The translations under genes and the position numbers were made by a program. Below the pieces are notes generated by a model. That model searched no databases and was not told where the DNA came from. It saw only the letters and a program-made list of their open reading frames with translations. A stretch of DNA of 41,311 nucleotides from Opitutaceae bacterium (lineage in GTDB: Bacteria > Verrucomicrobiota > Verrucomicrobiia > Opitutales > Opitutaceae): the NCBI GenBank assembly GCA_024711005.1, contig JANJTQ010000173.1, positions 1-41,311 on the forward strand, in the 5' to 3' direction. Shown here piece by piece: positions 297 to 16,700 of the stretch (its first letter is position 1; every line of letters begins with the position of its first letter).

Positions 297-304
297 TTCC
301 CGCC

Positions 305-1084
305 ATGAACTCCTATCAAATCGGCATGCTCAGGATTTTCCGCCTCGCACTCCTCCCTCTGCTTTCCTTCTGCGCAGTCGCCACGCTGTCCGCACAGCAA
401 TCCACCAAAGCCGCGCCTCCGGTCTCCTTTCGCTTCATGAGCTGGGAACAGCCGATCGGAGGTCTCTACGTCACGTCCGACGGCAAAAACTTCAGTCCAA
501 TCCACGCCCCCGCCAACAATTGGGGACGCAACCTCGATCTCTTTCTCACGTCCGCCAACAACCAGATCCTCCGCCTCTATCGTCAAGTCCAGCGCGACGG
601 CAAAACCGTTTACGACGTCGTCGCCGAGGCCCCCCTCGCCGGGGACTGTCTCGACTTTCAAATCGCGGTCCTTCGTCAAAATGGTGACACCCCCTACCGG
701 ATGATCGTCCTGCCCAACGACCCAGGCCGGTTCCAAGCCGGCACGCTCCGCGCGTTCAATTTCAGCGCGCACCCCGCCGTCGTAAAAATCAACGACACCG
801 TGGTCTCCCTCGCGCCCCTCGAATGGCGCATGGTCCCCGTTAAACCCGACCGCAAATACCGGATCATGCTGGCCGCCGCCCTGCAGGTCTCCAACGACTG
901 GATCAACGCCGGTCGTGAAATCCTCACCCTGCGCCCGGGCCACCGCGGCGAGCTCACCGTTTTCTTCACCGCCGGCAGTGTCGGCGACTACGTCGAGGCT
1001 CTGGTCCCCGGCAACTCCGCCCGCGCCCTGACCATCACCGCGTCCCAGTACGCGCCGTCGTCGCAAGATACCATGGTCAATTGA
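305..1084 (+). CDS. Secreted protein of unknown function, 259 aa
   Basis: The start at ATG 305 lies 8 bases after the preceding stop; an in-frame ATG at 326 would place the signal peptide right at the N-terminus. A hydrophobic stretch (FRLALLPLLSFCAVATL) followed by SAQQ looks like a type I signal peptide, so export is likely. The mature part is rich in beta-strand-like alternation and contains no cysteine motif or catalytic signature that I recognise. Its tight spacing behind the Verru_Chthon A fragment suggests a role tied to that cassette rather than to glycan degradation. No function is assigned. Confidence 0.75.
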   Translation: MNSYQIGMLRIFRLALLPLLSFCAVATLSAQQSTKAAPPVSFRFMSWEQPIGGLYVTSDGKNFSPIHAPANNWGRNLDLFLTSANNQILRLYRQVQRDGKTVYDVVAEAPLAGDCLDFQIAVLRQNGDTPYRMIVLPNDPGRFQAGTLRAFNFSAHPAVVKINDTVVSLAPLEWRMVPVKPDRKYRIMLAAALQVSNDWINAGREILTLRPGHRGELTVFFTAGSVGDYVEALVPGNSARALTITASQYAPSSQDTMVN

Positions 1085-1100: not shown

Positions 1101-2168
1101 ATGAAATCCCACCGCCTCCTCCTCGGCCTCCTTGCGGCCGCCGCCGCCTTTTCTTCGACGCTCTTCGGCGCCGAAATCAAGCCCACCGATCCGTCGGTGC
1201 GCTACATCGGTCGGTTCGACACGTCCGATGCTGCCGGCCCCAAGTGCTCCTGGTCCAACAGCACCGTCGCCTTCACCGTTTCCGGCGGCTCGGTCGATGT
1301 GACGCTCAAGGACACCAACAAGAGCCACTGGCAGGTCGTGATCAACGGCAAGCCCACCGAGGTCCTCGCCCTCAAGGCCGGCGAAGACACCTATCCCGTC
1401 GCCGCCAATCTCTCCCCCGGCCGCCACACCGTCGAACTCGTCAAGCGCACCGAACCGTCCCAGGGCGTCACCCAGATCACCGGTCTGCGCATCGACGACA
1501 CCGCCAAACTCCTGCCCACTCCCGCCCGTCCTCGCCGCATCGAGATCATCGGCGACTCCATCACCTGCGGCTTCGGCAACGAGGCCCCCAACAAGGAGGC
1601 GAAATTCACCGCCGCCACCGAAAACGCCTGGCTCACCTACGGCGCCGTCGCCGCCCGCGAAGTTAACGCCGACTACGTCGCCATCGCCGTCTCCGGAAAA
1701 AAACTCTGGCCCGACAACACCATCGTCTCCCTCTACGATCGCGTCCTCACCAACTCCGCCACACCCAAGTGGGACTTCGCTTCATGGACGCCCGACGCCG
1801 TCGTGATCAACCTCGGCACGAATGATTTTGCCAGGGAGAACCCCGACGAAGCCGGCTGGATCGCCGCCTACGTCGACTTCATCAAGCAAATCCAGGCCCG
1901 CTATCCCAAGGCCGTCGTGTACTGCACCCTCGGACCCATGATCAGCAACTGGCCCGGCGATCGCACACCGCGCACCGTCGTCCTCGGCCACTTCGAAAAA
2001 ATCATCTCCCAAGCCAACGCCGCCGGCGGCCGGCCCGTGCACTTCGTGGACTTCGGCACACAGGCCCAGCACCACGGCATCGGCGCTCAGTGGCACCCCA
2101 GCGTAAAGACCCACTCCCTCATGGCCGAGAAACTCGTCGCCGCCTTCAAGCGCGACCTCGGCTGGTAA
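1101..2168 (+). CDS. Secreted SGNH acetylesterase, carbohydrate esterase family 2 type, 355 aa
   Basis: The protein has a signal peptide (about residues 1-23), an N-terminal jelly-roll-like domain (about 30-135) and a C-terminal SGNH hydrolase domain (about 145-355), which is the two-domain layout of CE2 esterases. The nucleophile lies in GDSITCGFG (Ser153), the block N/G motif is NLGTND (237-242) and the catalytic His is in WHPS (His332). The residue before WHPS is Gln rather than the usual Asp, consistent with CE2 enzymes that work with a Ser-His dyad. CE2 enzymes remove O-acetyl groups from xylo-, manno- or gluco-configured sugars. The position directly before two GH5 genes suggests it strips acetyl groups so that the backbone can be cut. 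The exact substrate is inference. Confidence 0.85.
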   Translation: MKSHRLLLGLLAAAAAFSSTLFGAEIKPTDPSVRYIGRFDTSDAAGPKCSWSNSTVAFTVSGGSVDVTLKDTNKSHWQVVINGKPTEVLALKAGEDTYPVAANLSPGRHTVELVKRTEPSQGVTQITGLRIDDTAKLLPTPARPRRIEIIGDSITCGFGNEAPNKEAKFTAATENAWLTYGAVAAREVNADYVAIAVSGKKLWPDNTIVSLYDRVLTNSATPKWDFASWTPDAVVINLGTNDFARENPDEAGWIAAYVDFIKQIQARYPKAVVYCTLGPMISNWPGDRTPRTVVLGHFEKIISQANAAGGRPVHFVDFGTQAQHHGIGAQWHPSVKTHSLMAEKLVAAFKRDLGW

Positions 2169-2294: not shown

Positions 2295-4124
2295 ATGCCG
2301 ATTCACCCCATCGTCCGCCTGGTCGCCACCCTTCCGCTCGCGGCCGCACTCCTCTCCGCCGGTCCCGTCAACTCGCCGCCGATGCTCGGCATCAACCTCT
2401 CGGGCGCGGAATTCGGCAACGAGTGGCCGGGGACTTTCGGACGCACCTACACCTACCCGGGCGCGGCCGATCTCGATTACTACAAGGCGCGCGGACTCGA
2501 GTTGATCCGCCTGCCTTTCCGTTGGGAACGCATCCAGCCCATCCTCGAGGAGCCGCTCGCCCCCGAGGAACTCGCCCGCATGGACGCCTTCCTCGACGCC
2601 GCCGAAACCCGCGGCATGCGCGTCGTGCTCGATATGCACAACTACGCGCGTTACCACCTCCACGGAAAATCGCGCATCATCGGCTCGCCCGAACTCCCCC
2701 GCTCCGCGTTTCGCGACGTCTGGGAACGACTCGCCGCCCACCTCAAGGACCGCGACTGCATCTGGGCCTACGGGATCATGAACGAACCGCACAGCCTCGG
2801 CGAATTCACCTGGTTGGAATCCGCCCAGAGCGCCATCGACGGTATTCGAAAACACGATACACGCCACGCCGTCCTTGTCCCCGGCGAGTTTTTCAGCGGC
2901 GCTCATCGCTGGCTTCAAGCCAGCGCGCACCTCATCAAGATCAAGGACCCCGCCAACAACCTCATCTTCGAGGCGCACCAGTATTTCGATCGCGACCACT
3001 CCGGCAAATACCGGGGCGACTACAAGGACGAGGGCGCCCGGCCGGACGCCGGTGTCGAACGCACCCGCGACTTCCTTGCTTGGTGCCGTTCCAACCAGGT
3101 GCGCGGCTTCATCGGCGAATACGGCGTGCCCGACAACGATCCCCGCTGGCTCGTCGTCCTGGATCGCACGCTCTCCCGCATGAAGGCCGCCGGCATCTCC
3201 GGCACCTATTGGTCGGGCGGCCCGTGGTGGGGCAACTACACCCTCGCCGCCGGTCCGCGTTCCTTGCACGACGAAGCTCCGCAGATGGCCGTCCTCGCCA
3301 AATACGCCGAAGGTCCCGGCACCCGCCACTGGCCCGCGTTTGTCTGGCATGGCGACGCCGATCCCCGCCGCAGCCGGCGTCCCGCGGTTGTCCCCTATCA
3401 GTCCAAAGGCGCGTTCCTGTTCGCCGATGCCGAATCCGACACCGCCGCCTTCGCCGGCGCCACCGGACTGTTCCTCAACTACACCATTCCGGAGGGCGGA
3501 CACGGTGGCGTCAGCCTTGATCTTGAAGGCGAAGGCGCGGCCCTCGCCCGCAACTTTGCCCTCGGCCACGAACTCACGTTCCACGCCAGCGGCACCAGCG
3601 GATCGTCACTCGGCCTCCTTCTTGTCACCGCCAAAGGCGTGAAGAGCGCCCCCGTGAGTCTCGCGGACTTCACGTCCCTTGACCGGAACTGGCGCGAGGT
3701 TCGCATCCCGCTGACCCGCTTCCTCACGCCGGCCTTCAACGGCGCCGATCGCATCGCCCGACTCATCATCGAAGGCCGCCCCTCCGACGGTCGCGCCTAC
3801 ACCGTGGAGATTGACGAGTTGATGGTAAAAAGCCCGCAGGCTCCCCCGATCGTCACCTTGGAAATCGCCGGTGGCGATCGTTCCCGTTTCCCCCTTCGCA
3901 CCGCGTTCGAGGTCACCGTTTCCGCCAAAGGCGCCGACGGCGGCCCCGTCGACTTCGTGGAATTTATCCTCAACGGCGAACGCGTCGCCCTCTCTCGCGA
4001 TGCCCCCCACACCGCGCGCATCACCCCGCCCGTGGCCGGGACCTACCGTCTCGCCGCCATCGCCTACGACCGCCACGGCAACCCCGCCCGCTCCCCGGTG
4101 AAAACCCTCACTCTTACCCCCTGA
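2295..4124 (+). CDS. Secreted GH5 glycoside hydrolase with C-terminal beta-sandwich and Ig-like domains, 609 aa
   Basis: A short signal peptide (about 1-23) is followed by a GH5 TIM barrel (about 28-340). The acid/base Glu164 sits in IMNEP and the nucleophile Glu275 in GEYGVP; a conserved DMHNYARY segment lines the active site. The barrel resembles endo-beta-1,4-glucanase-type GH5 proteins starting with GINLSGAEFG. Residues about 365-510 form a beta-sandwich resembling carbohydrate-binding or CIA30-like modules, and about 515-609 an Ig-like domain (VDFVEFILNGERV...HGNPARSP). It is closely related to the next gene over the barrel and both C-terminal domains but lacks that protein's N-terminal module. 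The likely job is internal cutting of a beta-glycan backbone outside the cytoplasm; the exact linkage cannot be read from sequence. Confidence 0.88.
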   Translation: MPIHPIVRLVATLPLAAALLSAGPVNSPPMLGINLSGAEFGNEWPGTFGRTYTYPGAADLDYYKARGLELIRLPFRWERIQPILEEPLAPEELARMDAFLDAAETRGMRVVLDMHNYARYHLHGKSRIIGSPELPRSAFRDVWERLAAHLKDRDCIWAYGIMNEPHSLGEFTWLESAQSAIDGIRKHDTRHAVLVPGEFFSGAHRWLQASAHLIKIKDPANNLIFEAHQYFDRDHSGKYRGDYKDEGARPDAGVERTRDFLAWCRSNQVRGFIGEYGVPDNDPRWLVVLDRTLSRMKAAGISGTYWSGGPWWGNYTLAAGPRSLHDEAPQMAVLAKYAEGPGTRHWPAFVWHGDADPRRSRRPAVVPYQSKGAFLFADAESDTAAFAGATGLFLNYTIPEGGHGGVSLDLEGEGAALARNFALGHELTFHASGTSGSSLGLLLVTAKGVKSAPVSLADFTSLDRNWREVRIPLTRFLTPAFNGADRIARLIIEGRPSDGRAYTVEIDELMVKSPQAPPIVTLEIAGGDRSRFPLRTAFEVTVSAKGADGGPVDFVEFILNGERVALSRDAPHTARITPPVAGTYRLAAIAYDRHGNPARSPVKTLTLTP

Positions 4125-4161
4125 CCTCAAGAGTTCACCGCCCCCCGCTTTCTTCCACCCC

Positions 4162-6786
4162 ATGAAAACAAAAATCCAAAAAACACACCCACGCCTCACC
4201 AGGCGTTGTTATCTACCCCGCGTCCTCGGCACCCTTTCGGCGATCGCCGCCTTGGGACTCGCAGTCGTCGCACACGCCCAGACAGCCCTCGTCAACGATG
4301 ACTTCAACGCCACGTCCCTCAACACCGGGAAATGGGCGAACGGCAGCACCAATTCGGTTGGTGTCACCACGTTTGCCAATGGCGCGATCGCCCTGGACAC
4401 CAATCTGGAGACCACGGCGCGCAACACGCTCCTAGCGCACGCGACCAACATCAATCCGTTCACCAAAGAACTCACGATCACCCTCGACGGCCTCGCGCTC
4501 GCGGGTATTCCCGCCGGCAATCCCATCTCGCTCTTCGCGGTCGTTGGTCGCCTGCCGACCGACACCGGAGGTGCCGCCACCTCAACACTCGCGGCGGCCT
4601 ACACCACGGGCGGCGGCGTGTATTACACCGGTGGCGGCACGGGCGGCGCGCTCGGCCTCTCCATCCTGCGCTACAGTAGCGGATCCATCCAACTGCAGGT
4701 CCTGGACTCCGGCGGCATAAACGGAACCGGCGGCTACGCCAACGCCCTTGGCAGCAATCGCGTGCTGAGCGCGGTTCCCTCCAAGATCGTCTGGATCATC
4801 AATGGACAAACCTCGTCCTTCACGGTCGTCTTGACCGGTGCAACCTTCACCAACGGGGCCGAAGCCGGCACCGGCACGATCACCGGCTCGTTCTCGCGCT
4901 TCACCGCCGCGACTCTGGGAGGCTCTCCGGTCGCCCGGTTCGCGATGGGCGCCTTCAACACCGGCACCGGAATCACCGATGGCGCCGCCGCCACGTTCAA
5001 CAACGTCATGGTCTCCACTCCTGCCTCATTATCCGGCCCGCCCACGATGATGGGCGTCAATCTCGCCGGCGCCGAATTCGGCGAAGTGTTCCCCGGAACC
5101 TTCAATCAAGACTACGTTTATCCCGGAGTCGCCGAGCTCGACTACTACAAGGCCCGCGGCATCGAACTCATCCGCCTGCCGTTCAAATGGGAACGCATCC
5201 AGAACACGCTTAACGGAGCGCTCAATACCGCCGAACTCGCCCGCATCGACACGTTCCTCAATCTCGCCGAGCAGCGCGGCATGCGCGTGATCCTCGATAT
5301 GCACAACTATGCGCGTTATCGGATCTCCGGCACCCCCTACATCATCGGCAGCACACAGGTGCCGCGCTCGGCCTACGCCGATGTGTGGTCAAAGCTCGCC
5401 GCACACGTCAAAAACCGCGACTGCATCTGGGCCTACGGCATCATGAACGAGCCCTACGACGTGGGAACCTACACGTGGAAGGACAGCGCCCAGGTGGCCG
5501 TGAACGCGATTCGCGCCCACGACACCCGCCACACCATTCTCCTCCCCGGAGACGCATACAGCGGCGCTCATTGGTGGCTCACCCATGGAGCCAACCTCAT
5601 CACGATCACCGATTCCGCCAACAACCTGATGTTCGAGGCGCACCAGTATTTCGACAGCAACAGCTCCGGAAAATACCTCGGCACCTACGACTCCGAGGGC
5701 GCCACTCCGACGAGCGGCATCGCCAGCCTCACCGACTTCGTGAACTGGTGTAACACCAACGGTGTCCGCGGCTTCATCGGAGAATACGGCGTGCCCGACA
5801 ACGACCCGCGGTGGATCACCACCCTCGATAACGCCCTCGGTTATCTCGCCAGCAACAACATCAGCGGCACCTATTGGGCCGGCGGTCCGTGGTGGGGTTC
5901 CTACGCCCTCTCCTCCGAGATGCGCCGCGTCGGCGAGGAAGCACCGCAAATGGCGGTTCTCATCCCCCGCGGCAGTGGTGTCGGCACCCGCTACTGGCCG
6001 CCCTATGTCTGGTACAAGGACGCCGTCTCCAGCAGCCCGTCGGGTTCCTACACCTATAACTACAAATCGAGCACCGCCTCGGTCGCGGTCAACTTCGACG
6101 ACGGCACCTCGGCCTACGGAGCCTACGACGGGGCCCGAGGTATCCGGTTTTCCTATACGGTGCCTTCAGGCGGCTGGGCCGGAGCCGGCATGCACCTCAA
6201 TGGCGGAGTCAAAGTGGCTCCCAGCTTCGAACGCAATCACGTGCTCACGTTCTACATCAAGGGCACGACCGGTTCCTCGGTGCGCGTCTTCTTCCGCGAC
6301 CTCAACGGGGTCACCAGCGCGAAGGTGAACACCGCCTCCTATGTCACCACCAGTGGTTCCTGGCAGCAGGTGCGGATCCCGCTCTCGCAATTCCTCACCT
6401 CAAGCTTCACCGGCACGGCGCGCGCCGATCGACTCGCGTTCGAAGGGCTCCCGATGGACAACACCGCCCGCGTCATCCAGCTCGACCAGTTCTCCATCGA
6501 AAAACCCGAAAGCATCTCGCCCGTCACCAGCGTGGCTTCGCCCGGAGGCACCACCTTCGCCGCGAACGCCTCGTTCACCGTCACGGCCACCGCCAGTGAC
6601 GCCAGCGGTGTCGATTTCGTGGAGTTCCTGATCAATGGCGAACGTGTCGTCGTCGACGAGACCTCCCCGTACTCCGCCACCATTTCGATCCCGGTGGCCG
6701 GTCAGCACCGGCTCACCGCGATCGCCTACGACAACCACGGCAACCCCGGCCGTTCTTCCGTCCAGACAATCACGATCAACCAATAA
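4162..6786 (+). CDS. Secreted four-domain GH5 glycoside hydrolase, 874 aa
   Basis: A long signal peptide (about 1-39, ending AHAQ) precedes an unknown all-beta module (about 41-290), a GH5 barrel (about 293-610), a beta-sandwich (about 625-775) and an Ig-like domain (about 780-874). The catalytic pair is Glu430 in IMNEP and Glu541 in GEYGVP. From the barrel onward it is a paralog of the gene 37 bp upstream, with long near-identical blocks such as LDMHNYARY and GEYGVPDNDPRW. The N-terminal module is homologous to almost all of the PEP-CTERM protein at 7291 and to the N-terminus of the esterase at 11317. The extra module probably alters targeting or glycan binding. A palindromic repeat begins directly after the stop codon. 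Confidence 0.88.
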   Translation: MKTKIQKTHPRLTRRCYLPRVLGTLSAIAALGLAVVAHAQTALVNDDFNATSLNTGKWANGSTNSVGVTTFANGAIALDTNLETTARNTLLAHATNINPFTKELTITLDGLALAGIPAGNPISLFAVVGRLPTDTGGAATSTLAAAYTTGGGVYYTGGGTGGALGLSILRYSSGSIQLQVLDSGGINGTGGYANALGSNRVLSAVPSKIVWIINGQTSSFTVVLTGATFTNGAEAGTGTITGSFSRFTAATLGGSPVARFAMGAFNTGTGITDGAAATFNNVMVSTPASLSGPPTMMGVNLAGAEFGEVFPGTFNQDYVYPGVAELDYYKARGIELIRLPFKWERIQNTLNGALNTAELARIDTFLNLAEQRGMRVILDMHNYARYRISGTPYIIGSTQVPRSAYADVWSKLAAHVKNRDCIWAYGIMNEPYDVGTYTWKDSAQVAVNAIRAHDTRHTILLPGDAYSGAHWWLTHGANLITITDSANNLMFEAHQYFDSNSSGKYLGTYDSEGATPTSGIASLTDFVNWCNTNGVRGFIGEYGVPDNDPRWITTLDNALGYLASNNISGTYWAGGPWWGSYALSSEMRRVGEEAPQMAVLIPRGSGVGTRYWPPYVWYKDAVSSSPSGSYTYNYKSSTASVAVNFDDGTSAYGAYDGARGIRFSYTVPSGGWAGAGMHLNGGVKVAPSFERNHVLTFYIKGTTGSSVRVFFRDLNGVTSAKVNTASYVTTSGSWQQVRIPLSQFLTSSFTGTARADRLAFEGLPMDNTARVIQLDQFSIEKPESISPVTSVASPGGTTFAANASFTVTATASDASGVDFVEFLINGERVVVDETSPYSATISIPVAGQHRLTAIAYDNHGNPGRSSVQTITINQ

Positions 6787-6843
6787 TGGCATAGGCACCC
6801 CCGCCCATGGGATTGAGCCTCATGGGCGGGAACGCCGATGCCA
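6787..6843. repeat. 57-bp near-perfect palindromic repeat, copy 1
   Basis: The arms TGGCAT-GGC...CGCCCATGGG and CCTCATGGGCGG...GCC-ATGCCA fold back on each other with a loop of about six bases, starting one base after the GH5 stop. A second, diverged copy lies at 6924-6976. The layout resembles bacterial REP/RAYT-type intergenic palindromes. It may also act as a 3' processing or stop structure for the GH5 transcript. No T-run follows. Confidence 0.6.
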
Positions 6844-6923
6844 CATCGATCGCGAACGCACGAGCCTGAGTTTTGACCCGGTGCAATCCTCGTGCCCGCG
6901 CGGTGAACCGAGGTCGAAAAAGT

Positions 6924-6976
6924 GGCATGGTCATCCTGCCCATGGGATCGAAACTCATGGTCAGGCTGCCCATGCC
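6924..6976. repeat. 53-bp palindromic repeat, copy 2
   Basis: The ends GGCATG...CATGCC and the inner CCATGGGAT...CTCATGG are shared with copy 1. The arms (GGCATGGTCATCCTGCCCATG against GGCATGGGCAGCCTGACCATG on the other strand) pair with a few mismatches. The core CCCATGGGAT(T/C)GA..CTCATGG is common to both copies, so this is a family and not a chance hairpin. Confidence 0.6.
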
Positions 6977-7290
6977 GCGCCGGGCGCGGAAGTGGCCAAC
7001 CCCTGCTACCGGAGAGGCTCAAGACCCGTTCAGGCTGCAATTTAATGGCCTCACTCCATACACGAGCCACTCGTGAAAAAAGCTCGTGTTTAGCAGGGAT
7101 AAACAGCCCGCCGATTTCAGCTGACGCAGGGCAAATACCCATTGACCGCGTTCTGTACTAGCATAGAACTCATCCCAGTGGATTATCCACATTCCGGCGC
7201 TCGTTACTCACGCGTCATTTGCCGAAACGGCACTCGTGCACAGCCCCCGGCTTTTACCGCCCCGCCTGCCCTCTCCCCACCCCCGCCAAC
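6977..7290. other. Non-coding stretch between two glycan-degradation transcription units
   Basis: Apart from the two palindromes upstream and a weak promoter candidate at 7142-7169, I see no convincing coding sequence here. Short frames in this stretch are composition driven, without a start context or family motifs. It probably holds the 5' regulatory region of the PEP-CTERM gene. Confidence 0.5.
7142..7169 (+). promoter_or_regulatory. Candidate sigma70-type promoter upstream of the PEP-CTERM gene
   Basis: TTGACC (7142-7147) and TAGAAC (7164-7169) are separated by 16 bases and match the -35 and -10 consensus at five and four of six positions. The site is about 120 bp upstream of ATG 7291 in the only long gap of the glycan locus, where a promoter is expected. 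Confidence 0.35.
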
Positions 7291-8217
7291 ATGAATACAT
7301 TACCCGTAGCCCCATCGCCGATCATCAGGTATTCCACCGGCCTTCGCCTTGCGATGTTCGCCGCCACGCTCGGGCTCACCACCGCCTCCGCCGCCCAGGC
7401 AGCCCTGTTCTCGGATCCCTTCGAAAGCAGCTTCCTCAACACCGCAGTCTGGACCTTGGGCAGCACGAGCTCCCTCGGCACCGCCACCGTGGGCTCCGGG
7501 AATCTTGTCCTCGACGTGAATCAAGAGACCACCAGCGCTCGCACCGCCGTCGTCACGGACGCCCATAATTTCAACCCGTTCGGCAGCCCCGTCACCGTGT
7601 CACTTTCGGGTCTCTCTCTCGGTGGCAATCCCGGCGCATCGTTCAATACGCTCTACTCCGCGATCGGACGCCTCTCGACGGATACGGGCGGCGAGGCCAC
7701 GGGCGCCTTCGCGGCCAGCTACTCCGCCGGCGGCTCTTATGGGACCGGCGGTGCCTTCGGCGTCTCACTCCTCGGTTTCTCCTCCAACTACCGTATTCAA
7801 GTTTTGGATAGCGGGTCCGACGTGGCCGTAAAACAGGTCCAGATCGCCCTGAGCGGTGCGCCGACCGGCATGAGCTACACCGTGGACGGCGTCAATGCCA
7901 CCTGGACCCTATCCGTCACCGGCGCCACCTTCACCGGAGCGTTTATCACCAACGGCCTGGAGGCGAACTTGGCGGACGCGACCACGATTAACGGAAGCCT
8001 CATCAACTTCACTGCAGCCAGCCTCGCCGCGGGCGAAGGCGTCGTCTCGCGCGTCATCCTCGGCGCCAGCAACGGCACCGGTGTCAGGGATGGAGCCATC
8101 GCCACCTTCGGCGGGGTTAATGTCGCGTCCTCCGCCATCCCCGAGCCCTCGTCCTTCGCGTTCCTCACGTCCGTCTTGGACGACGGCCCGACCATCGGGC
8201 ATCTCCGCCGGCAGTAA
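7291..8217 (+). CDS. Secreted PEP-CTERM-type protein with the shared beta-rich module, 308 aa
   Basis: The start at ATG 7291 gives an export signal ending near SAAQA; upstream in-frame starts would bury it. The body (about 35-280) is homologous to the N-terminal module of the GH5 at 4162 and of the esterase at 11317. Shared blocks are RLSTDTGGEAT, VTGATFT..F.TNG and VSRVILGA.NGTGVRDGA. The C-terminus has PEP at 284-286 followed by SSFAFLT and a terminal LRRQ, which is the order of a PEP-CTERM sorting tag. The hydrophobic segment between them is interrupted by DDGP, so the tag looks degraded. It has no catalytic domain. A cell-surface or matrix glycan-binding role is inference. Confidence 0.75.
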   Translation: MNTLPVAPSPIIRYSTGLRLAMFAATLGLTTASAAQAALFSDPFESSFLNTAVWTLGSTSSLGTATVGSGNLVLDVNQETTSARTAVVTDAHNFNPFGSPVTVSLSGLSLGGNPGASFNTLYSAIGRLSTDTGGEATGAFAASYSAGGSYGTGGAFGVSLLGFSSNYRIQVLDSGSDVAVKQVQIALSGAPTGMSYTVDGVNATWTLSVTGATFTGAFITNGLEANLADATTINGSLINFTAASLAAGEGVVSRVILGASNGTGVRDGAIATFGGVNVASSAIPEPSSFAFLTSVLDDGPTIGHLRRQ

Positions 8218-8408
8218 CTCCTCGGCAGTGCGTCCTCTCCCGCCGCCCCATCGCCAATGGCTGCTGCTCCATTACCCCGCCGATGCGCTCTCGTCACATG
8301 CGTCGGTTCGTGGCACCCGCCAGGCGTCGGCAAACCCGAATAGCCCCGCCCGCCTTCTTCCCTTCGCCGTGCTCGCCCCTGTGCGCGGTGCTCGTCCCCC
8401 CAAATAAC

Positions 8409-11201
8409 ATGAACTCCCCATACCCCGTGCGGCGAAGCCTCGCTTCCACCGCACTCCGCCACTGCGTTGCCCTCGCCGGCCTCTTCACCGCCTCCGTCGT
8501 CGCCCACTCTCAAACCGTCGGCTATTGGCGGCTCGAATCCCCCGACACCCTCGCCGACTCCGGGCCCTTCGGCCTGCATCTGGCCCTCACCGGCAGCACC
8601 GCCACCTCGCACATGCTTCCCGCCAGCGGCGCCGGTTCAAGTTTCCCCACCACCGTCGCCCGCACCGGCCTCCCGGACGACTTCTGCGTCCGAGGCTCCG
8701 CCGCCAACAACTCCTTCGGATCTTCCAATTACACTGTCGGCGACGCCCCCGCCTTTTCCATCTCCTCGTCCGAGGGAATCACCGTCGAGGCCTTCGTAAA
8801 TCTCACCGCCGGCTCTTCCGCCACCAAACACATCGCCGCCCAAGGGAGCGGTCAGACGGACGGTTCCTGGGGCTTCGGTGTCTCCGGCGACGGCTCCGGC
8901 CTCGGTGCCCGACGCCTCTTCTTCCAGTTCCGCACCACCGCCGGCGGCTGGGGCGCGACCGGTATTCACACGATCAACTCGAACGTCGAGATCGTGCCCG
9001 GCAAGGACTACTACGTCGCCGCCGCGATCAAGCTCTCCGACACCTCCGCCACCGGCGCCGTCTTCTACATAAGAAACCTCACCGACAATACCGCCCTGCA
9101 GACGGTCTCCGTCGCCCGTTCCTCCGCCGCGACCGCCCTCCATGACACCGCCCTCGCCTTCACCATCGGCAACTCCGTCACCTCCGCCCCCTGGCTCGGC
9201 TTGATCGACGAGGTCCGCGTATCGAAGGCGCAACTACCGCCTTCGAAGCTCCTCATCGCCTCCCGCAATCCCGGCCCCGCCGATCCCGAACACCTCTTCG
9301 GCATCAACGTCTCCGCCGCCGAGTTCGCCAGCTTCTCCAACGCCGCCGCCACCATCCCCGGCGTGTACGGACAGACCTACTTCTACCCCACCGCCGCGGC
9401 CATGGACTACTATCAGGCCAAAGGCTTTCGCCTCATCCGATTCCCCTTCCGTTGGGAACGCATCCAATCCTCCCTCGGCGGCCCCCTGAACTCCGTTGAG
9501 ATGCGTCGCATGGATGCCGTCATGCAGATGGCCGCCGATCGCGGCATGAAAGTCGTGTTCGATATGCACAACTTCTCCGACTACTACATCGCCGGCGTGA
9601 AACATAAGATCGGCATGCCCGGTTCCGCCGCCACCGCCGCCCACTTCACCGACGTCTGGCGCAAACTCGTCCGTCACTACCAGGCCATCCCCGAGTTCTC
9701 CGAGATCATCTACGCCTACGACGTGATGAACGAACCCACGTACTACAACGGCGACCCCACCACCGTCACCGTCTGGCCCGCCCTCGCCCAGCAGGTCGTC
9801 GACGCCATCCGCGAGACCGACTCCGTCAGCTACATCATGATCAGCGGCGATGGCTACAGCCAGGCAACCAACTGGGAACTCTACAACGAGGGTCTCAACG
9901 TCGCCGATCCTTCCGACCGCATCATCTACCAGGCCCACACCTACTTCGACAAAAGCCGCGGAGGCTTCTACAACCTCGGCGGCTACGACGCCGAACAGGC
10001 CTACCCCGAGGTCGCCCTTGACCGCGTCCGCCCTTTCATCGACTGGCTCCAAAAGAAAAACGCCCGCGGCTTCGTCGGCGAATACGGCGTTCCTCGCGAC
10101 GATGCCCGCTGGCTGACCGTCCTCGATAAGCTCCTCGTTTACCTCAAAGACAACGGCGTGAGCGGCACTTACTGGTGCGCCGGCCCCAACACCGTCAACA
10201 ATCAGCTCAGCTGCGAGCCTGCCAACGGCGTCGATCGCCCCCAGATGGCCGTTCTCACCGCCCGTCTCGAAGGCAACGGCGGCGTTGGAGTCGGCACCGG
10301 CCTCCGCGCTTTCTACCACAGCGCCTACAACCTCACCGGCACGGTCGTCACCACCGTCGATCCCACGATCAACCTCAACCTCGGCACCTCTCCGCCCCCT
10401 GGCACCGGCTTCGGAGCCAGCTGGAGCGCCCGCTGGATCGGCAAGGTCAAGGCCCCCGCCACCGGCACCTATACGTTCTACGCCAACTCGGACGACGGCG
10501 TCCGCGTCTGGGTCAATGGAAAGCTCGTCGCCAGCGGCTGGACCACCCGCACCGCTCCCGTCGAGGTCTCCGGCACGGTCAAGTTGTATCAAGGTATCAA
10601 ATACGACATCCGCGTCGAATACTACAAGGTCTCCGGCGACGCCGTCTGCCAGCTCCGCTGGTCCGGCCCCGGCCTCGCCAAACAGATCATCCCCGCCGCC
10701 CAGTTCTACCCGATCGGCGACGGACTCCGCGCCACCTACTACGACGTCGAGACGCTCTCCGGCACGCCGCTCTATCGCATCGAGTCGCAGATCTTCAAAC
10801 CTTGGTACGGTCGCTCCCCGCTCCCCGGCATGGGATCCACCAGCTTCAGCGTCCGCTGGGAGGGCTGTTTCAGCGTGCCGACCAGCGGCACCTATCGCCT
10901 CACCACCACCACCGACGACGGCGTGCGTCTCTGGTTCAACGGCACCCAGTACGTGAACAACTGGACGACCGCCGGCGCGGCTCGCAACAACGCCCTCACC
11001 GTCACCCTCTCCGCCGGCGCCTTTTATCCGCTCACCATCGAGTACTATCATCTCAACGCCGCGCCCGACAGCTCCCGCGCGTTCCTCCTCTGGCAACCCG
11101 TCGTCGGCGGCACGCCGTCCGGACCCGCCATCAACGTTCCCGAAGAGTGGCTTTACAGCGCATCCCCCGGCGTCAGCCCCGGCGCCCACATGAACTGGTG
11201 A
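8409..11201 (+). CDS. Secreted LamG-GH5-PA14-PA14 protein, 930 aa
   Basis: ATG 8409 is chosen because it places a signal peptide at the N-terminus (about 1-37, ending VVAHSQ); the frame is open further upstream but that part looks non-coding. Residues about 38-285 form a LamG/concanavalin-like domain (GYWRLESPD...IDEVRVSK). A GH5 barrel (about 290-620) has acid/base Glu442 in VMNEP and nucleophile Glu558 in GEYGVP. Two PA14 domains follow at about 629-770 (DDGVRVWVNGKLV) and 770-915 (DDGVRLWFNGTQY). The barrel is more diverged from the two other GH5 proteins than they are from each other. PA14 domains often bind sugars, so this enzyme probably grips the same polysaccharide by different modules. 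A hairpin terminator candidate follows. Confidence 0.87.
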   Translation: MNSPYPVRRSLASTALRHCVALAGLFTASVVAHSQTVGYWRLESPDTLADSGPFGLHLALTGSTATSHMLPASGAGSSFPTTVARTGLPDDFCVRGSAANNSFGSSNYTVGDAPAFSISSSEGITVEAFVNLTAGSSATKHIAAQGSGQTDGSWGFGVSGDGSGLGARRLFFQFRTTAGGWGATGIHTINSNVEIVPGKDYYVAAAIKLSDTSATGAVFYIRNLTDNTALQTVSVARSSAATALHDTALAFTIGNSVTSAPWLGLIDEVRVSKAQLPPSKLLIASRNPGPADPEHLFGINVSAAEFASFSNAAATIPGVYGQTYFYPTAAAMDYYQAKGFRLIRFPFRWERIQSSLGGPLNSVEMRRMDAVMQMAADRGMKVVFDMHNFSDYYIAGVKHKIGMPGSAATAAHFTDVWRKLVRHYQAIPEFSEIIYAYDVMNEPTYYNGDPTTVTVWPALAQQVVDAIRETDSVSYIMISGDGYSQATNWELYNEGLNVADPSDRIIYQAHTYFDKSRGGFYNLGGYDAEQAYPEVALDRVRPFIDWLQKKNARGFVGEYGVPRDDARWLTVLDKLLVYLKDNGVSGTYWCAGPNTVNNQLSCEPANGVDRPQMAVLTARLEGNGGVGVGTGLRAFYHSAYNLTGTVVTTVDPTINLNLGTSPPPGTGFGASWSARWIGKVKAPATGTYTFYANSDDGVRVWVNGKLVASGWTTRTAPVEVSGTVKLYQGIKYDIRVEYYKVSGDAVCQLRWSGPGLAKQIIPAAQFYPIGDGLRATYYDVETLSGTPLYRIESQIFKPWYGRSPLPGMGSTSFSVRWEGCFSVPTSGTYRLTTTTDDGVRLWFNGTQYVNNWTTAGAARNNALTVTLSAGAFYPLTIEYYHLNAAPDSSRAFLLWQPVVGGTPSGPAINVPEEWLYSASPGVSPGAHMNW

Positions 11202-11226
11202 ACACCTCCGGATATCCATCCTCTGC

Positions 11227-11258
11227 GGAACGCCCGGCAAGCCCGGGCGTTCCCCTTT
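11227..11258 (+). terminator. Hairpin terminator candidate after the LamG-GH5-PA14 gene
   Basis: GGAACGCCCGG (11227-11237) and CCGGGCGTTCC (11243-11253) form a perfect 11-bp stem with a 5-base loop, followed by CCTTTT. The T-run is short, so termination may be partial and allow read-through into the esterase gene. Confidence 0.55.
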
Positions 11259-11316
11259 TGCCCACGAGGGACCCGATGTCTCTTCGGCTCTCGCCACCGC
11301 CTCGCCCGACACACTC

Positions 11317-14300
11317 ATGAAGTTCGCCCTTGTCTCCCTGACCGCCCTCCTCGCCTCCTCCGCCGTCGCCGACACCATTGTCCAAGACGATTTCGCCGGG
11401 TTCGACTCGTCGAGGTGGACCTACGCCGCGCATGCAGGCGGCGCCGCCACTTCCCCCGGCATCGAGGACGGCGCCATCGTTCTGGACACCGGCACCCACA
11501 GCTCCAGCAACCGCGCCGCGCTTGGCTCGACCGTCACTCGCGCCAATCCCTTCTCCCACGCCACCACGCTCACCATCACCGGTATCTCCCTCGACAGCAC
11601 CTCGACCACCGGAACCAGCGTCGGCTATCTCATCCTCGGTCGCGAAGAAACGGATACCGGCGAAGCGCTGACCGCCACGCAGGTCAAAAGCTACAGCAGC
11701 ACCGCCCATGCACCCTACGACGGTCTCCCGTCCGGCACTCCCGCAGGCGCGCTCGCGTTGAACCTTTTTAAGAACAACGCCACCGGCGCACACTCCATCA
11801 CCGTCTACGATCTCGGGGCCAGCGCCAGCTCCGCCACATGGACCTTGGACGCCGCGCCGGACGCCATCACTTGGGTCGTCAATGGCACCGGCTCGGAGAA
11901 CACCTACTCCTTCACCCTCGTCGGTGCCGCCATCACCGGCGGTCCGAACGGCGTCAGCACGTCCTCCGCCTCCGGCACGTGGGCCAAGGACACCCGCTTC
12001 GGCGCGAGCGATCTGACCGTCGGTGACAAGACCGTCTCGCGGATCATCCTCGGAGCGATCAACGCCGGGAACCTCGACACCGGCTCGACCACGCGCTTCA
12101 GCGTCGGCGAGATCCAGGTGAGCGACACCAGCGCGTCCGCGCCCGAACCACCGCTCCCGGAGGGCGCCACCACTTCGCAGATCATGTTTGGTTTCGATGT
12201 CGACGGCTCAACCCCTCTCGCCCTCTTCCCCGGCGTCTCCATGGGAGTCGAGTGGGGCTCGGGTAACTACAGCACCCAGTCCAGCGGCGCCCTCAGCGGC
12301 GATGTCGAGGACCTCAATTCCGGCGCCGTCGGCCAGCTCGCCCTCCCCGCCATCGCCGCCTTCACCTCCGGCCTCACCCTCAATGCCACCGCCTACGACG
12401 GCACCGCGCCGGTGCTCGTCGGAACCCCCGCCACCCTCAACCCCATCGTCGCCGGCGGACTCTCCTTGCTTCGTCCGCAAACCGCCCTCGGCGCAGCGTT
12501 CTACACCGGCGATTACATCGAGTTTCGCTTCGATCACGACGTGGAGATTAAGAGCGTGTCGTTCCATTCCGCCGCACCGTCCGAGTTGGTCGATATCTAC
12601 GCCAACGGCGTCCTGATCTATCGCGGAAGCGCCTACCATCTCGCCTCGAATCCCCTCAACCTCGGCCGTGTCCCGCTCGCCGCCGGCCAGGTGTTCGTCG
12701 TCCAGGCCAACAGCTCCAGCGACGGCTTCCACCTCGCCACGCTCACCGTCGCCGCCCCCGGCTCCCCCGAACCCGTTTTTCTCCCGCGGATCTTCGGCAG
12801 CGGCACCGTCCTTCAACGCGACACCCCCGTCCCCGTCTGGGGCAAAGGCAAACCCGGAGACACCATTACGGTCTCGATCGCCGGCCAAACTCAAACCACC
12901 ACCGCCAACAGCCAGGGTGCCTTCGAGGTCACCCTTGCACCGCAGCCCGCGGGCGGTCCTTACGAACTGGTCGTTTCCGGCAGCCACAGCGTCGCCGTCA
13001 CCTCCACCGATGTTTGCTTCGGCGACGTCTGGCTCTGCGGCGGCCAATCCAACATGTGGTATCGGTTGATGGATCACCTCCCTCAATACCCGGGAGTCTA
13101 CGGCACCATTCCCAACTCGACCGACAACTTCGACGACATGCGCCTCTGCTTCGTCGCCAACGACACCTCCACAAGCCTGCGGTCCGACGTCACGCTCACC
13201 ATCCCGTGGAGCCGTTGGAAAAACGTCCCGCTTCCTTTCGGCACCAACCTGAACTGGATGCCGACCACTCCCTACTTTTTCGCGCGCGCCCTCAAACAGG
13301 CACTCAACGCAAACGGTCTCTCCAAGGTCCCCATCGGCATCCTCATCTCGTGCCAGGGCGGCACCAACATCGAGCAGTGGATCTCCCAGGACGCCCTCGC
13401 CGCCGCCGGCCCCTGGCCCAGCGGCTCCATCATCCCCACCACCGCCTCCGACTGCTACAACGCCATGCTCGGCCCGATCGAACGCTTCCCCGTCAAGGGC
13501 GCCGTCTGGTATCAGGGCGAAAACAACTCGGGCAACTACATCCGCGTCGACGCCTACAAAAAACTCAAGGAAACCCTCGTCGACTCCTGGCGCGCGGCCC
13601 GTGGCTCCGACTTCCCGTTCTACTTCGTCCAACTCGCCAGCTGGATGACCCACTCGCCCATCCCCACTGACGACGACGCCCCCGGAACCGCCTACCGCTC
13701 AAGCTGGGCCTGGATGCGCGAAGCCCAGACCGACTGTCTCGACATCCCGCGCACCGCCATGGCCGTCACCATCGACACCGGTGATCAAACCAACATTCAT
13801 CCTTCCGGCAAAGATCTCGTCGGCCAACGTCTCGCCCTCATCGCCCAAGCCGACGCCTACGACCTTCCCGTCGTCAGCCGCGGCCCGACGCTCGCCAGCT
13901 ACGTCGTCGACGGCTCAAGCATCATCCTGACCTTAGACAACGTTGGCGGAGGACTCACAACCCGCGAGGTCGACGCACAACCCGACGCGACCGAAACCTC
14001 ACGCGCTCTTCCCGCCGTGCACGCCAATGCCAACGAACTCCTCGGCTTCACCCTCTGCGGAGCGGACAAGGTGTTCTTCCACGCCACCGACGCCGAGATC
14101 ATCGCGCCCAACCAAATCCGCCTCTCGAACTCCGCCGATGTCCCCGCTCCCGTCGCCGTGCGCTACGCCTGGCAGAGCTTTCCTCTCTGCAATCTCTTCG
14201 GCGGCACCGGCCTCCCCGCCGAGCCGTTTCGCACCGATTCTTTCGCCCGCGACTCGGCCGGCGGAGCGGATAGCACCCCCGCCCATGTCGGCCCGACCGG

Positions 14301-14997
14301 CGCATCGCTCTACACCGCCGGCGCACGTCTCGTGATCGACCTTGACACCGTCTTCCGCGACATCGAGGACCGGACGAACGGCGTCGCCCTAACCTACGCG
14401 CTCACCGGAAACGACTCACCGTCCGTCGCCACCGCCTCCCTCGACGGCGATCAGCTCACCCTCACCGCCGGCGACGAACCCGGCTCCACCGAGGTCACCG
14501 TCACCGCCACCGATTCCACGAATAAAACCGTCAGCTCCGCACTCCACTTCTCCGTCGAGTTCACCACCTTCGCCGCCTGGCAGCATCGCCACTTCGCTCC
14601 CGTGGAACTCGCCGATCCATCCTTGGAAGCCACCGTGTGGGGAGCCTCCGCCAATCCCGACGGCGACCGTTTCGAGAACCTTCTCGAATACGCCATCGGC
14701 ACCAATCCCAACGCCGGGGACCCTGTCATCGAGCCGATCTCGATCCAGGTGCGGAACGGGAACCTGATGGTGCGCTACCGCCGCTCGAAGGACGTCGACA
14801 GCGATCCAAGCATCCTCCTGCTCGTGGAGACGTCCACCGATCTCGTCGCTTCAAGCTGGTCGCCTTTGGACGGCCCGGAAACAGTCCACACCGATCTGGG
14901 CGAAGCCGAACTCCGCGAAATTCTCCTGCCCAACAACGAGCCTCGTCGCTTCGCCCGCCTGTCCGTCCATCGCGTCGACAGCCCCGAAGCTCCGTGA
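11317..14997 (+). CDS. Secreted multi-domain sialate O-acetylesterase-like protein, 1226 aa
   Basis: A signal peptide (about 1-19) is followed by the shared unknown beta module (about 20-270), a second beta-rich module (about 285-490), an SGNH esterase core (about 490-980), an Ig/cadherin-like domain (about 1000-1090) and a C-terminal region with NPDGDRFENLLEYAIGTNP, typical of secreted Verrucomicrobiota proteins. The core has GGQSNMWY (nucleophile Ser578), GAVWYQGENN and TNIHPSGKDLVGQRL (His828), the signature of sialate-O-acetylesterase / DUF303 enzymes. Family members are usually about 500-650 residues, so this is a heavily extended form. In this locus the substrate is more likely acetylated plant or microbial polysaccharide than sialic acid. 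The 42-bp gap to GH3 suggests joint transcription. Confidence 0.85.
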   Translation: MKFALVSLTALLASSAVADTIVQDDFAGFDSSRWTYAAHAGGAATSPGIEDGAIVLDTGTHSSSNRAALGSTVTRANPFSHATTLTITGISLDSTSTTGTSVGYLILGREETDTGEALTATQVKSYSSTAHAPYDGLPSGTPAGALALNLFKNNATGAHSITVYDLGASASSATWTLDAAPDAITWVVNGTGSENTYSFTLVGAAITGGPNGVSTSSASGTWAKDTRFGASDLTVGDKTVSRIILGAINAGNLDTGSTTRFSVGEIQVSDTSASAPEPPLPEGATTSQIMFGFDVDGSTPLALFPGVSMGVEWGSGNYSTQSSGALSGDVEDLNSGAVGQLALPAIAAFTSGLTLNATAYDGTAPVLVGTPATLNPIVAGGLSLLRPQTALGAAFYTGDYIEFRFDHDVEIKSVSFHSAAPSELVDIYANGVLIYRGSAYHLASNPLNLGRVPLAAGQVFVVQANSSSDGFHLATLTVAAPGSPEPVFLPRIFGSGTVLQRDTPVPVWGKGKPGDTITVSIAGQTQTTTANSQGAFEVTLAPQPAGGPYELVVSGSHSVAVTSTDVCFGDVWLCGGQSNMWYRLMDHLPQYPGVYGTIPNSTDNFDDMRLCFVANDTSTSLRSDVTLTIPWSRWKNVPLPFGTNLNWMPTTPYFFARALKQALNANGLSKVPIGILISCQGGTNIEQWISQDALAAAGPWPSGSIIPTTASDCYNAMLGPIERFPVKGAVWYQGENNSGNYIRVDAYKKLKETLVDSWRAARGSDFPFYFVQLASWMTHSPIPTDDDAPGTAYRSSWAWMREAQTDCLDIPRTAMAVTIDTGDQTNIHPSGKDLVGQRLALIAQADAYDLPVVSRGPTLASYVVDGSSIILTLDNVGGGLTTREVDAQPDATETSRALPAVHANANELLGFTLCGADKVFFHATDAEIIAPNQIRLSNSADVPAPVAVRYAWQSFPLCNLFGGTGLPAEPFRTDSFARDSAGGADSTPAHVGPTGASLYTAGARLVIDLDTVFRDIEDRTNGVALTYALTGNDSPSVATASLDGDQLTLTAGDEPGSTEVTVTATDSTNKTVSSALHFSVEFTTFAAWQHRHFAPVELADPSLEATVWGASANPDGDRFENLLEYAIGTNPNAGDPVIEPISIQVRNGNLMVRYRRSKDVDSDPSILLLVETSTDLVASSWSPLDGPETVHTDLGEAELREILLPNNEPRRFARLSVHRVDSPEAP

Positions 14998-15039: not shown

Positions 15040-16647
15040 ATGTCCTCCCGCTTCCGCCTCTCCATCTCCGACCGCGCCCGTTCCCTCGCGGCCGCACTGC
15101 CGATCCGTGACCTGATTCTTCAGGTCACCGTACCCGCCCTCGTGCACTTGGATCCGCAAAAACTCGATGGCTACGGAGGCATATTCCTCCACGGCTCCAC
15201 CCAGGCCGAGCGCGACGAACTCCTCGCGCGCCTGCGCCCGTTGTGTCCCGTGCCTCCGTTCGTCGTCGCCGACATCGAGGCCGGGCCGGGCGATCTCCCC
15301 GCCGCCCTCGATGTCGAGTTCGGCACGATGATGAGCAACGGCGTCGCCAACGACCCGGACCTCACCGCCACGCTTGGCGACATCACCGGACGCCTTTCCG
15401 CCGCCCGCGGTTTCAATTGGTCCCTCGCCCCGTGCGTCGACCTCGCCGTCGAGCCCGACTCGCCCATGGTAGGAACCCGCAGTCCCGGCCGCGACCCCGA
15501 ACACGTCGCCCGCATCACCTGGGCCTTCGCCTCCGGCCTTCAAAAACACGGCGTCCTCGCCACCGCCAAACACTTCCCGGGTGATGGTTTCGGCACGCTC
15601 GACCAACATCTCACCACCGTCGTCAATCCGCTCTCCATGGACCAATGGCGCGCCGGCCCCGGCCTCGCCTTTCAGCGCATGATCGACCACGGCATCCGCG
15701 CCATCATGCCCGGTCACATTTCGCTGCCGGCCTACGACGAGCCCGATCCGGTCCTCGGCCTCTGTCCACCCGCCACGCTCTCGCGTCGCCTCATGACCGA
15801 CCTCCTCAAAAACGAAATGGGCTTCGACGGCCTCATCGTTTCCGACGCCGTCAACATGACCGGCTTCTGCGGGTTCATGAATTACTACAATGCCTGCGCC
15901 CGTTTTCTGGAAGCCGGCGGCGACGTGATTCTCTTCGCAAAAATCGACGAACGCTTCTTCACCGAAATGCACCGTTGTCTCGACGAGGGAAAACTCACCG
16001 AGGCCACTCTCCGCGACCGCGCCGCGCGCATCATCGCCGTGAAGGAGTCCATGGGCTTGCTCGATGCACCCTCGCCCGGCCTCCCGCCCATGCCCGATCT
16101 CGCCACGCTCAACCTTCCCGCGCTCTCCGACGAACTGGCCGCCAAAGCCACCGTTGTCCTCCGCGATCGCGCCGGCCTGCTGCCTTTGCGCATCGAAAAA
16201 TCCACCCGTGTCCTCCACCTGGTGGTTTATAACAACTACGAGCGCCACAAACCGCTCCTGGACTACTTCACCGCCCGCCTCGGCGAACACTCCGACCACG
16301 TCACCGAGTGGGTCGATCCCGGCTGCGACCGTCTCTTCCAGGCCGCCCGTAACCGCGAGTTCGACGTCATCATCTGCTCCCTCGGCGGAGCCATCGAATA
16401 CGGCGCCAACGTCCTCCGTCTCCACGGTCCCGTCGCCCGCAACTTGATGTATGGCTGGATGCGTCTCGGCGTTCCGGCAGTGTTCGTCGCCCACCATCAT
16501 CCGTATGCAACCTACGAATACGATGCCGCCATCGACTGCTGCCTCGCCACGTTCGGCGGCGGTCGCCCGGCGGTCCGTCGTCTCGTAAGCGGCCTGATCG
16601 GCGAGGTCACCCTGCCGCACGTGAACACCCGGGGCGCCATCGCGTAA
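15040..16647 (+). CDS. GH3 family beta-N-acetylhexosaminidase-like protein, 535 aa
   Basis: No signal peptide is visible, so the enzyme is probably cytoplasmic. The N-terminal GH3 barrel has KHFPGDG (from Lys177) followed by LDQH, the flexible-loop Asp-His pair of NagZ-type GH3 enzymes, and the nucleophile Asp269 in VSDAVNMTG. Beyond about residue 350 there is an alpha/beta domain resembling GH3 C-terminal domains, ending at a histidine-rich VFVAHHHPYATY segment. NagZ-type enzymes release N-acetylglucosamine from the non-reducing end of glycans, some by phosphorolysis using the same His. Its place behind secreted depolymerases suggests trimming of imported oligosaccharides. Peptidoglycan recycling is an alternative, but the neighbours argue against it. 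Confidence 0.82.
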   Translation: MSSRFRLSISDRARSLAAALPIRDLILQVTVPALVHLDPQKLDGYGGIFLHGSTQAERDELLARLRPLCPVPPFVVADIEAGPGDLPAALDVEFGTMMSNGVANDPDLTATLGDITGRLSAARGFNWSLAPCVDLAVEPDSPMVGTRSPGRDPEHVARITWAFASGLQKHGVLATAKHFPGDGFGTLDQHLTTVVNPLSMDQWRAGPGLAFQRMIDHGIRAIMPGHISLPAYDEPDPVLGLCPPATLSRRLMTDLLKNEMGFDGLIVSDAVNMTGFCGFMNYYNACARFLEAGGDVILFAKIDERFFTEMHRCLDEGKLTEATLRDRAARIIAVKESMGLLDAPSPGLPPMPDLATLNLPALSDELAAKATVVLRDRAGLLPLRIEKSTRVLHLVVYNNYERHKPLLDYFTARLGEHSDHVTEWVDPGCDRLFQAARNREFDVIICSLGGAIEYGANVLRLHGPVARNLMYGWMRLGVPAVFVAHHHPYATYEYDAAIDCCLATFGGGRPAVRRLVSGLIGEVTLPHVNTRGAIA

Positions 16648-16700
16648 ACAACGATTCTTTTTTCGCTCTTTTGCGCCGTTTACGGTCATCTCCTCCACCA

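Follow-up and report, generated by a model that had tools for sequence, protein, structure and literature searches.

A module of about 250 residues recurs in three neighbouring secreted proteins of an Opitutaceae bacterium, two of them unrelated enzymes, and belongs to a family that is without a model in Pfam or NCBIfam. Structure prediction supports well, as a prediction, a two-sheet jelly roll of the concanavalin A-like lectin/glucanase superfamily. We propose that the module is probably a non-catalytic, glycan-binding, lectin-fold domain, which would target enzymes when fused to them and serve as a secreted or anchored lectin when free; we infer binding from the predicted fold and the genes with which the module keeps company.

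Three proteins of one gene run share a homologous module

The window, by which we mean the whole stretch of 41,311 nucleotides that was analysed, is C96:1-41311 of a source genome (G000) of 5.0 Mb in 351 contigs. It holds a run of genes on the forward strand, starting at 1101, 2295, 4162, 7291, 8283, 11317, 15040 and 16671, in which Pfam finds CE2, three GH5, SASA-type, GH3 and rhamnosidase-like genes. The run and its module copies are as follows.

1101..2168, +, CE2-type esterase (Pfam PF17996, 2.2e-30)
2295..4124, +, GH5 paralogue without the module, a natural control (Pfam; similarity to the 4162 product)
4162..6786, +, GH5 enzyme with N-terminal module, 874 residues (PF00150, 2.6e-44, residues 326-573); domain order module, GH5, CBM11/30-like region (PF03425, 7.3e-06, 26.6 bits, just below the cut-off of 27), Big_7 (PF17957, 5e-13, residues 787-853)
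4276..5031, +, module copy A, residues 39-290 of the GH5 protein
7291..8217, +, stand-alone module protein, 308 residues (no Pfam family at E ≤ 1 and no NCBIfam family up to E 10)
7399..8160, +, module copy B, residues 37-290 of the 7291 product as aligned
8134..8214, +, degenerate PEP-CTERM-like tail of the 7291 product, PEP box kept and hydrophobic segment lost
8283..11201, +, GH5 protein with two PA14 stretches and no module (Pfam)
11317..14997, +, SASA-type esterase with N-terminal module, 1226 residues (PF03629, 2.1e-13, residues 570-840)
11371..12144, +, module copy C, residues 19-276 of the esterase
15040..16647, +, GH3-type protein (PF00933, 4.3e-55)
16671..19061, +, alpha-L-rhamnosidase-like protein (PF17389, 4.8e-22, scanned from 16704)

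The homology of the three regions, which the original prediction had proposed from shared motifs, is borne out by three lines of evidence. Pairwise BLASTP among copies A, B and C gives E values of 4e-47 (42% identity), 1e-20 (30%) and 2e-16 (30%), and the local alignment scores of the pairs lie 34, 20 and 17 standard deviations above those of 1000 shuffles each. The profile comparison that had been suggested as a check, run with hhalign on three separate sub-alignments, aligns all three pairs (100% and 1.8e-41, 98.2% and 4e-14, 97.6% and 4.6e-12). The Pfam architectures likewise confirm that the module is attached to two unrelated enzyme types, a GH5 enzyme and a SASA-type esterase. Judged by eye, each copy begins at the apparent mature N-terminus, directly after the signal peptide. 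The proposed order of shared blocks holds, although the esterase copy follows it only approximately, with DSSRW in place of LNT..W and TDTGE in place of TDTGG. The TDTGG block is not diagnostic of the wider family, a loose form of the pattern fitting 11 of the 23 module copies compared. Thirty columns are conserved in at least 17 of these 23, among them 11 glycines, three Asp, two Asn and one Arg, and they look more like the core of a fold than like a binding pocket.

The module is predicted to have a concanavalin A-like fold

The original prediction had also proposed searches of Pfam and of predicted structures. Pfam gave no match across the module in the three proteins at E ≤ 1, and for eight module members scanned to E 10 it listed three chance-level lines, the best at 0.34. 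Curated Pfam and NCBIfam lectin families likewise had no match to the eight members at E up to 10, a range in which HMMER filters discard most matches above about 0.1. We therefore did not assign the module to any catalogued CBM family. NCBIfam returned one line over the module of the three proteins, a beta-glucanase model at residues 147-191 of the esterase, with an E value of 0.066 (0.03 when the esterase module was scanned alone); the single PHROGs match among the eight members (E 0.39) was disregarded. When a profile of the eight members was searched against PDB sequences, 11 matches appeared up to E 10. The best eight (E ≤ 1) were all beta-glucanases, several of them variants of one enzyme, with a best whole-sequence E of 0.0034 and a best single stretch of 0.042, and the other three (E 1 to 10) were unrelated. 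These GH16 sequence matches are weak and come from what is nearly one protein family. In a literature search that covered few subscription journals, the text available described neither the module nor a prepilin/PEP-CTERM pairing in Verrucomicrobiota.

An AlphaFold2 model of copy A, made together with seven relatives, has a pLDDT of 77.9 and a pTM of 0.84, with poor confidence at residues 94-103 and 110-116. Foldseek matched this model to 44 PDB chains at E ≤ 1e-3, the top one being the YwfG cell-surface protein (3.7e-6), followed by legume lectins, Emp46/47 and staphylococcal lectin domains. By VIA it aligned to winged bean lectin with Z 16.8 and rmsd 3.5 over 205 residues; AgaC (16.6), a lichenase (16.4), ERGIC-53 and further lectins came out level with this. 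The model of copy C, which is about 30% identical to copy A, has a pTM of 0.80; Foldseek gave 156 chains at E ≤ 1e-3, with 8.3e-8 to Emp46p and pea lectin, and VIA gave Z 16.2 and rmsd 3.3 over 204 residues. The two models are not independent inputs, since the same eight sequences were used for both in a different order. Both are placed with concanavalin A-like folds over the whole module, and a search of viral structures added 61 matches at E ≤ 1e-3, of which most are uncharacterised and one is named as concanavalin A-like. Thus, the original view that the module resembles no nameable carbohydrate-binding family stands as far as Pfam CBM models are concerned, but must be amended by a predicted fold that is shared with lectins and glucanases.

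Lectins and GH16 enzymes are equal in Z as structural neighbours of the module. With the L-type lectins (legume lectins, ERGIC-53/Emp46-47, staphylococcal SasG/Aap/PLS and YwfG) it shares the predicted fold along its whole length at Z of about 16. It differs from them in structural-alignment identities of mostly 6-16%, in matching no Pfam lectin family and in the legume-lectin metal-site signature, which is present in 0 of 23 modules. The TDTGG ... GGALGL stretch is presumably reminiscent of the sugar loop of legume lectins. We dropped it as a candidate sugar site because divergent copies do not have TDTGG and the model of copy A is poor there.

With GH16 (lichenases, agarases and carrageenases) the module has in common the same predicted fold and a weak profile similarity, but it differs in catalytic residues. 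The strict motif E-x-D-x-(x)-E occurs in 0 of 23 copies. A looser form, E-x-D-x(1,2)-E, occurs in two of the 23, both from esterases; there it reads ETDTGE, lies in the TDTGG loop and stands about 20 residues ahead of the strand that corresponds to the GH16 motif in the alignment. In the PDB beta-glucanase alignment, the strand that carries the E-x-D-x-E acids is matched by module residues without those acids. We therefore dropped an active GH16 enzyme as a candidate identity for the module. Some concanavalin A-like domains bind no sugar, and the shared fold alone does not show what the module does.

The module occurs beyond this locus, free and fused

The original prediction regarded the module as specific to this type of locus, a form of novelty that copies elsewhere rule out. 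Five clear copies are present in the source genome, three in the window and two, both stand-alone, on contigs C97 and C164, and others lie in further genera and families of the order. Matches were found in 5 of 252 genomes of the family (one weak, G601), 8 of 372 of the order (one in part only, G273) and 5 of 387 of the phylum (four in part only), each count including the source genome itself, and in 5 of 10 genomes of the family to which G657 belongs. These counts are lower bounds because in the large searches no more than 6 to 10 candidates were scored for each genome; a first profile (A1) had found 2 of 387 genomes in the phylum and 2 of 61 in the family, and broader profiles found more. 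The weak partial matches G601, G358, G261 and G371 were excluded from copy counts and trees; the partial G273 copy was excluded from the trees and included among the 16 neighbourhoods described below. Close relatives are also found in records of Opitutaceae bacterium UBA4094 (L017, L018) and Verrucomicrobiota bacterium CSMAG_1311 (L019), and the stand-alone protein of L019 is also encoded in genome G505.

Fusions to GH5 or GH5-like domains number six proteins in five genomes by Pfam (the window, G565 twice, G505, G648 and G657). Those of G648 and G657 are GH5-like, with partial Pfam matches of 3.8e-6 and 5.8e-6, and one of the G565 proteins (G565a) was assigned to GH5 by a catalytic domain 89% identical to that of the 4162 product. 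SASA-type fusions are found in the window and in G565, the latter assigned by likeness (module 81% identical). Both enzymes also occur without the module: the 2295 GH5 is 52% identical to the 4162 product over residues 294-872 of the latter and has no match to the part ahead of these, and a related esterase in L019 matches the window esterase only from residue 287 on (57% identity, 943 columns). The module is thus like the CBMs of carbohydrate-active enzymes in architecture, as a discrete domain without a hydrolase motif that sits beside a GH5 enzyme and an esterase, the GH5 of 4162 having in addition its CBM11/30-like region just below cut-off. It differs from them in that no Pfam CBM model covers it and in that it also occurs on its own.

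Several other features of these loci deserve mention. The N-terminal 250 or so residues of the GH5+PA14 protein (8283-11201) look LamG-like by eye and have no Pfam match at E ≤ 1. In the window esterase another stretch of some 200 residues, approximately 287 to 495 (12175-12800), draws no Pfam match above cut-off, and this stretch is retained in the module-less L019 esterase. A secreted-looking protein lies upstream of the CE2 esterase at the same position in the window (302-1081) and in L017 (3830-4597); the window protein has no Pfam or NCBIfam match at E ≤ 0.01, and its L017 counterpart no NCBIfam match. Further upstream of the orthologous cluster in L017 (261-3824) is a protein of 1187 residues whose N-terminus weakly matches GspK / Verru_Chthon cassette protein A. 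In a genus-mate, locus L068 has an extra module-GH5 gene (2334-5036) after a rhamnosidase-like gene that was recognised by eye, a position at which the window, after 16671-19061, has none.

Most stand-alone copies carry a PEP-CTERM tag and lie beside a prepilin-like gene

Among 13 stand-alone copies inspected, 11 end in a PEP box, a hydrophobic segment and basic residues. Their best 15-residue hydropathy ranges from 1.67 to 2.64, as against 1.05 in the window copy and 0.57 in its G565 orthologue, both of which have kept the PEP box and lost the hydrophobic segment. NCBIfam listed TIGR02595 for all eight of the 11 tagged copies that were scanned, in five over the 16-bit cut-off, and gave 0 families at E up to 10 for the window copy and its G565 orthologue. 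Outside the count of 13 are the copies of G665 and G273, which look tagged by eye, that of G695, which does not, and the L037 copy, cut at a contig end. At E ≤ 1 the source genome yields 76 matches to PEP-CTERM, 73 of them above cut-off, and it also has four exosortase matches above cut-off; the 7291 product is not among the 76. The stand-alone protein had originally been described as a PEP-CTERM protein, free with a sorting tag, a description that does not hold for this copy. The L019 (G505) copy, with a module 78% identical to copy B, has an intact tail. No frameshift was seen behind the loss: the tail equals that of its L019 relative in length, and no tag appears in either of the two remaining forward frames. 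We conclude that the 7291 copy has lost its tag and is probably released. Most free copies share the tripartite tail with known PEP-CTERM/exosortase proteins (PMC1569441), and the window copy and its orthologue depart from them in having no hydrophobic segment.

A prepilin-like gene adjoins 11 of the 16 scorable stand-alone copies, namely those on C97 and C164, three in G005, G565 C224, G505 C144 and C218, and those of G703, G648 and G657. In G703 the prepilin-like gene is on the divergent strand, and in G648 and G657 only the fused gene separates it from the free one. The remaining five, the window copy, its G565 orthologue, G695, G665 and G273, have no such gene beside them; the G565 C163 copy, at a contig end with undetermined bases, was excluded from the scoring. 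TIGR02532 (NCBIfam) confirmed the prepilin identity in 7 of 7 cases tested, the other four being recognised by a motif scan. Regulators of the LacI and GntR types were confirmed at L008 and L019, that of L019 several genes away. Around the C164 copy (L066 3574-9092), an FAD-dependent oxidoreductase, a prepilin-like gene and the free module stand in a row, with a TonB-dependent receptor behind them on the opposite strand.

This pairing is a wider theme, not peculiar to the module. In the source genome, which has 46 prepilin-type matches, 11 of the 76 PEP-CTERM sites have a prepilin match no more than 2 kb away, in every case on the same strand, where 2.7 would be expected under an even spread, and two of the 11 are module proteins. 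In another Opitutales isolate, with 67 homologues of a pulG-like pseudopilin in its genome, one such pseudopilin lies in a cluster upregulated on alginate, with one replicate per treatment (PMC13274419), which makes a substrate-induced cassette plausible here. The likeness is that of a prepilin-like gene inside a substrate-specific degradation cluster; the difference is that the available part of the report makes no mention of the module and its main text has 0 occurrences of PEP-CTERM.

Free and fused modules are interleaved in the module tree

In a tree of 23 modules, in which support is good for 9 of 20 inner branches, GH5-fused and free copies are interleaved. The GH5 modules of the window and G565 group with the free copies of C97 and C224 (100/99), the G505 GH5 module with the free C164 copy (98/97, falling to 91/93 in a tree of 11 rows), and the fused modules of G648 and G657 with their free neighbours (98/98). 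The supported branches force four changes in the 23-row tree and two in the 11-row tree; the groups were fixed by architecture ahead of the trees, and some rows are long-branched. Holding the six GH5-fused modules together was rejected (p-AU 1e-31), as was holding together the four from Opitutaceae (p-AU 5e-6). A single fusion event is thus rejected for the modules, though the same grouping was not rejected for the catalytic domains of the module-bearing GH5 enzymes (p 0.318). It seems that enzymes and stand-alone proteins have exchanged the module, and gene conversion or fission could yield the same pattern as repeated fusion.

Discussion

The predicted fold and the architectures make it plausible that the module binds glycans. 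We propose that it would bind carbohydrate without cleaving it, by a concanavalin A-like jelly roll of the L-type lectin or GH16-like kind. Fused to a GH5 or SASA-type enzyme, it may play the part of a CBM and hold the enzyme on its polysaccharide. Free copies would be exported and, being mostly PEP-CTERM-tagged, handled by exosortase, to act as lectins on the cell surface or within the outer matrix, the 7291 copy probably being released rather than anchored as its tag is lost. Such copies often stand in cassettes with a prepilin-like protein and, where this was checked, a sugar-type regulator, and we infer both their surface location and a cooperation with the prepilin-like protein. Modules may have moved between free proteins and enzymes. 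The likeliest guess for the ligand is a beta-glucan or glucomannan type of polymer, since the solved relatives of the module-less 2295 GH5 are endoglucanases and cellulases (best 4ee9, 2e-76).

The module could instead be structural, binding no sugar and making protein contacts, for example a homotypic pairing that tethers enzymes to an anchored free copy. Legume lectins commonly dimerise. All five genomes with fused copies (G000, G565, G505, G648 and G657) also have an intact-looking tagged free copy, in the tree of 23 modules the sister of three GH5-fused groups is a free copy, and the core-like rather than pocket-like conserved residues fit such a role as well. We consider it unlikely, however, as free copies occur without a fused partner in G005 and G703 and glycan binders are usually found linked to carbohydrate-active enzymes. 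Less likely again is that the module is ballast, in the sense that a mature N-terminal domain with no role of its own was carried along with signal peptides when neighbouring genes for secreted proteins recombined. Its position at the mature N-terminus in all three proteins (by eye), the scatter of GH5-fused modules outside one clade and the lost tag of 7291 can be read in this way, but its core residues are conserved from one family of the order to another and at least two enzyme types have received fusions. That the module is itself a divergent, possibly active GH16-like glycoside hydrolase is highly improbable: a lichenase and GH16-type agarase/carrageenase are among its nearest folds (3i4i, 6hy3 and 9xlc, with Z 16.4, 16.6 and 16.3) and beta-glucanases are its only PDB sequence matches up to E 1, but the strict motif is found in no copy and the loose form is displaced in the two esterase copies that have it.

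On our preferred reading, that of a non-catalytic glycan-binding domain, a module unmodelled by Pfam and NCBIfam gains a predicted fold and a role that can be tested, with GH5 enzymes and esterases with and without the module as natural controls. It also brings to light a recurring neighbourhood in Opitutales, made of a prepilin-like protein, a PEP-CTERM protein with a lectin fold, enzymes and a regulator, which may help to explain the 46 prepilin-type and 76 PEP-CTERM matches in one genome. A bolder and rather improbable extension would have a surface-sorted free lectin cooperate with enzymes that bear the same lectin module, either by docking through lectin-lectin pairing, in a scaffold unlike that of cohesin and dockerin, or by crosslinking on one and the same polysaccharide, while a substrate-induced pseudopilin aids export or display. 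If this were true, the Opitutales would possess a modular, recombining apparatus for degradation at the cell surface, built from lectin-pseudopilin cassettes.
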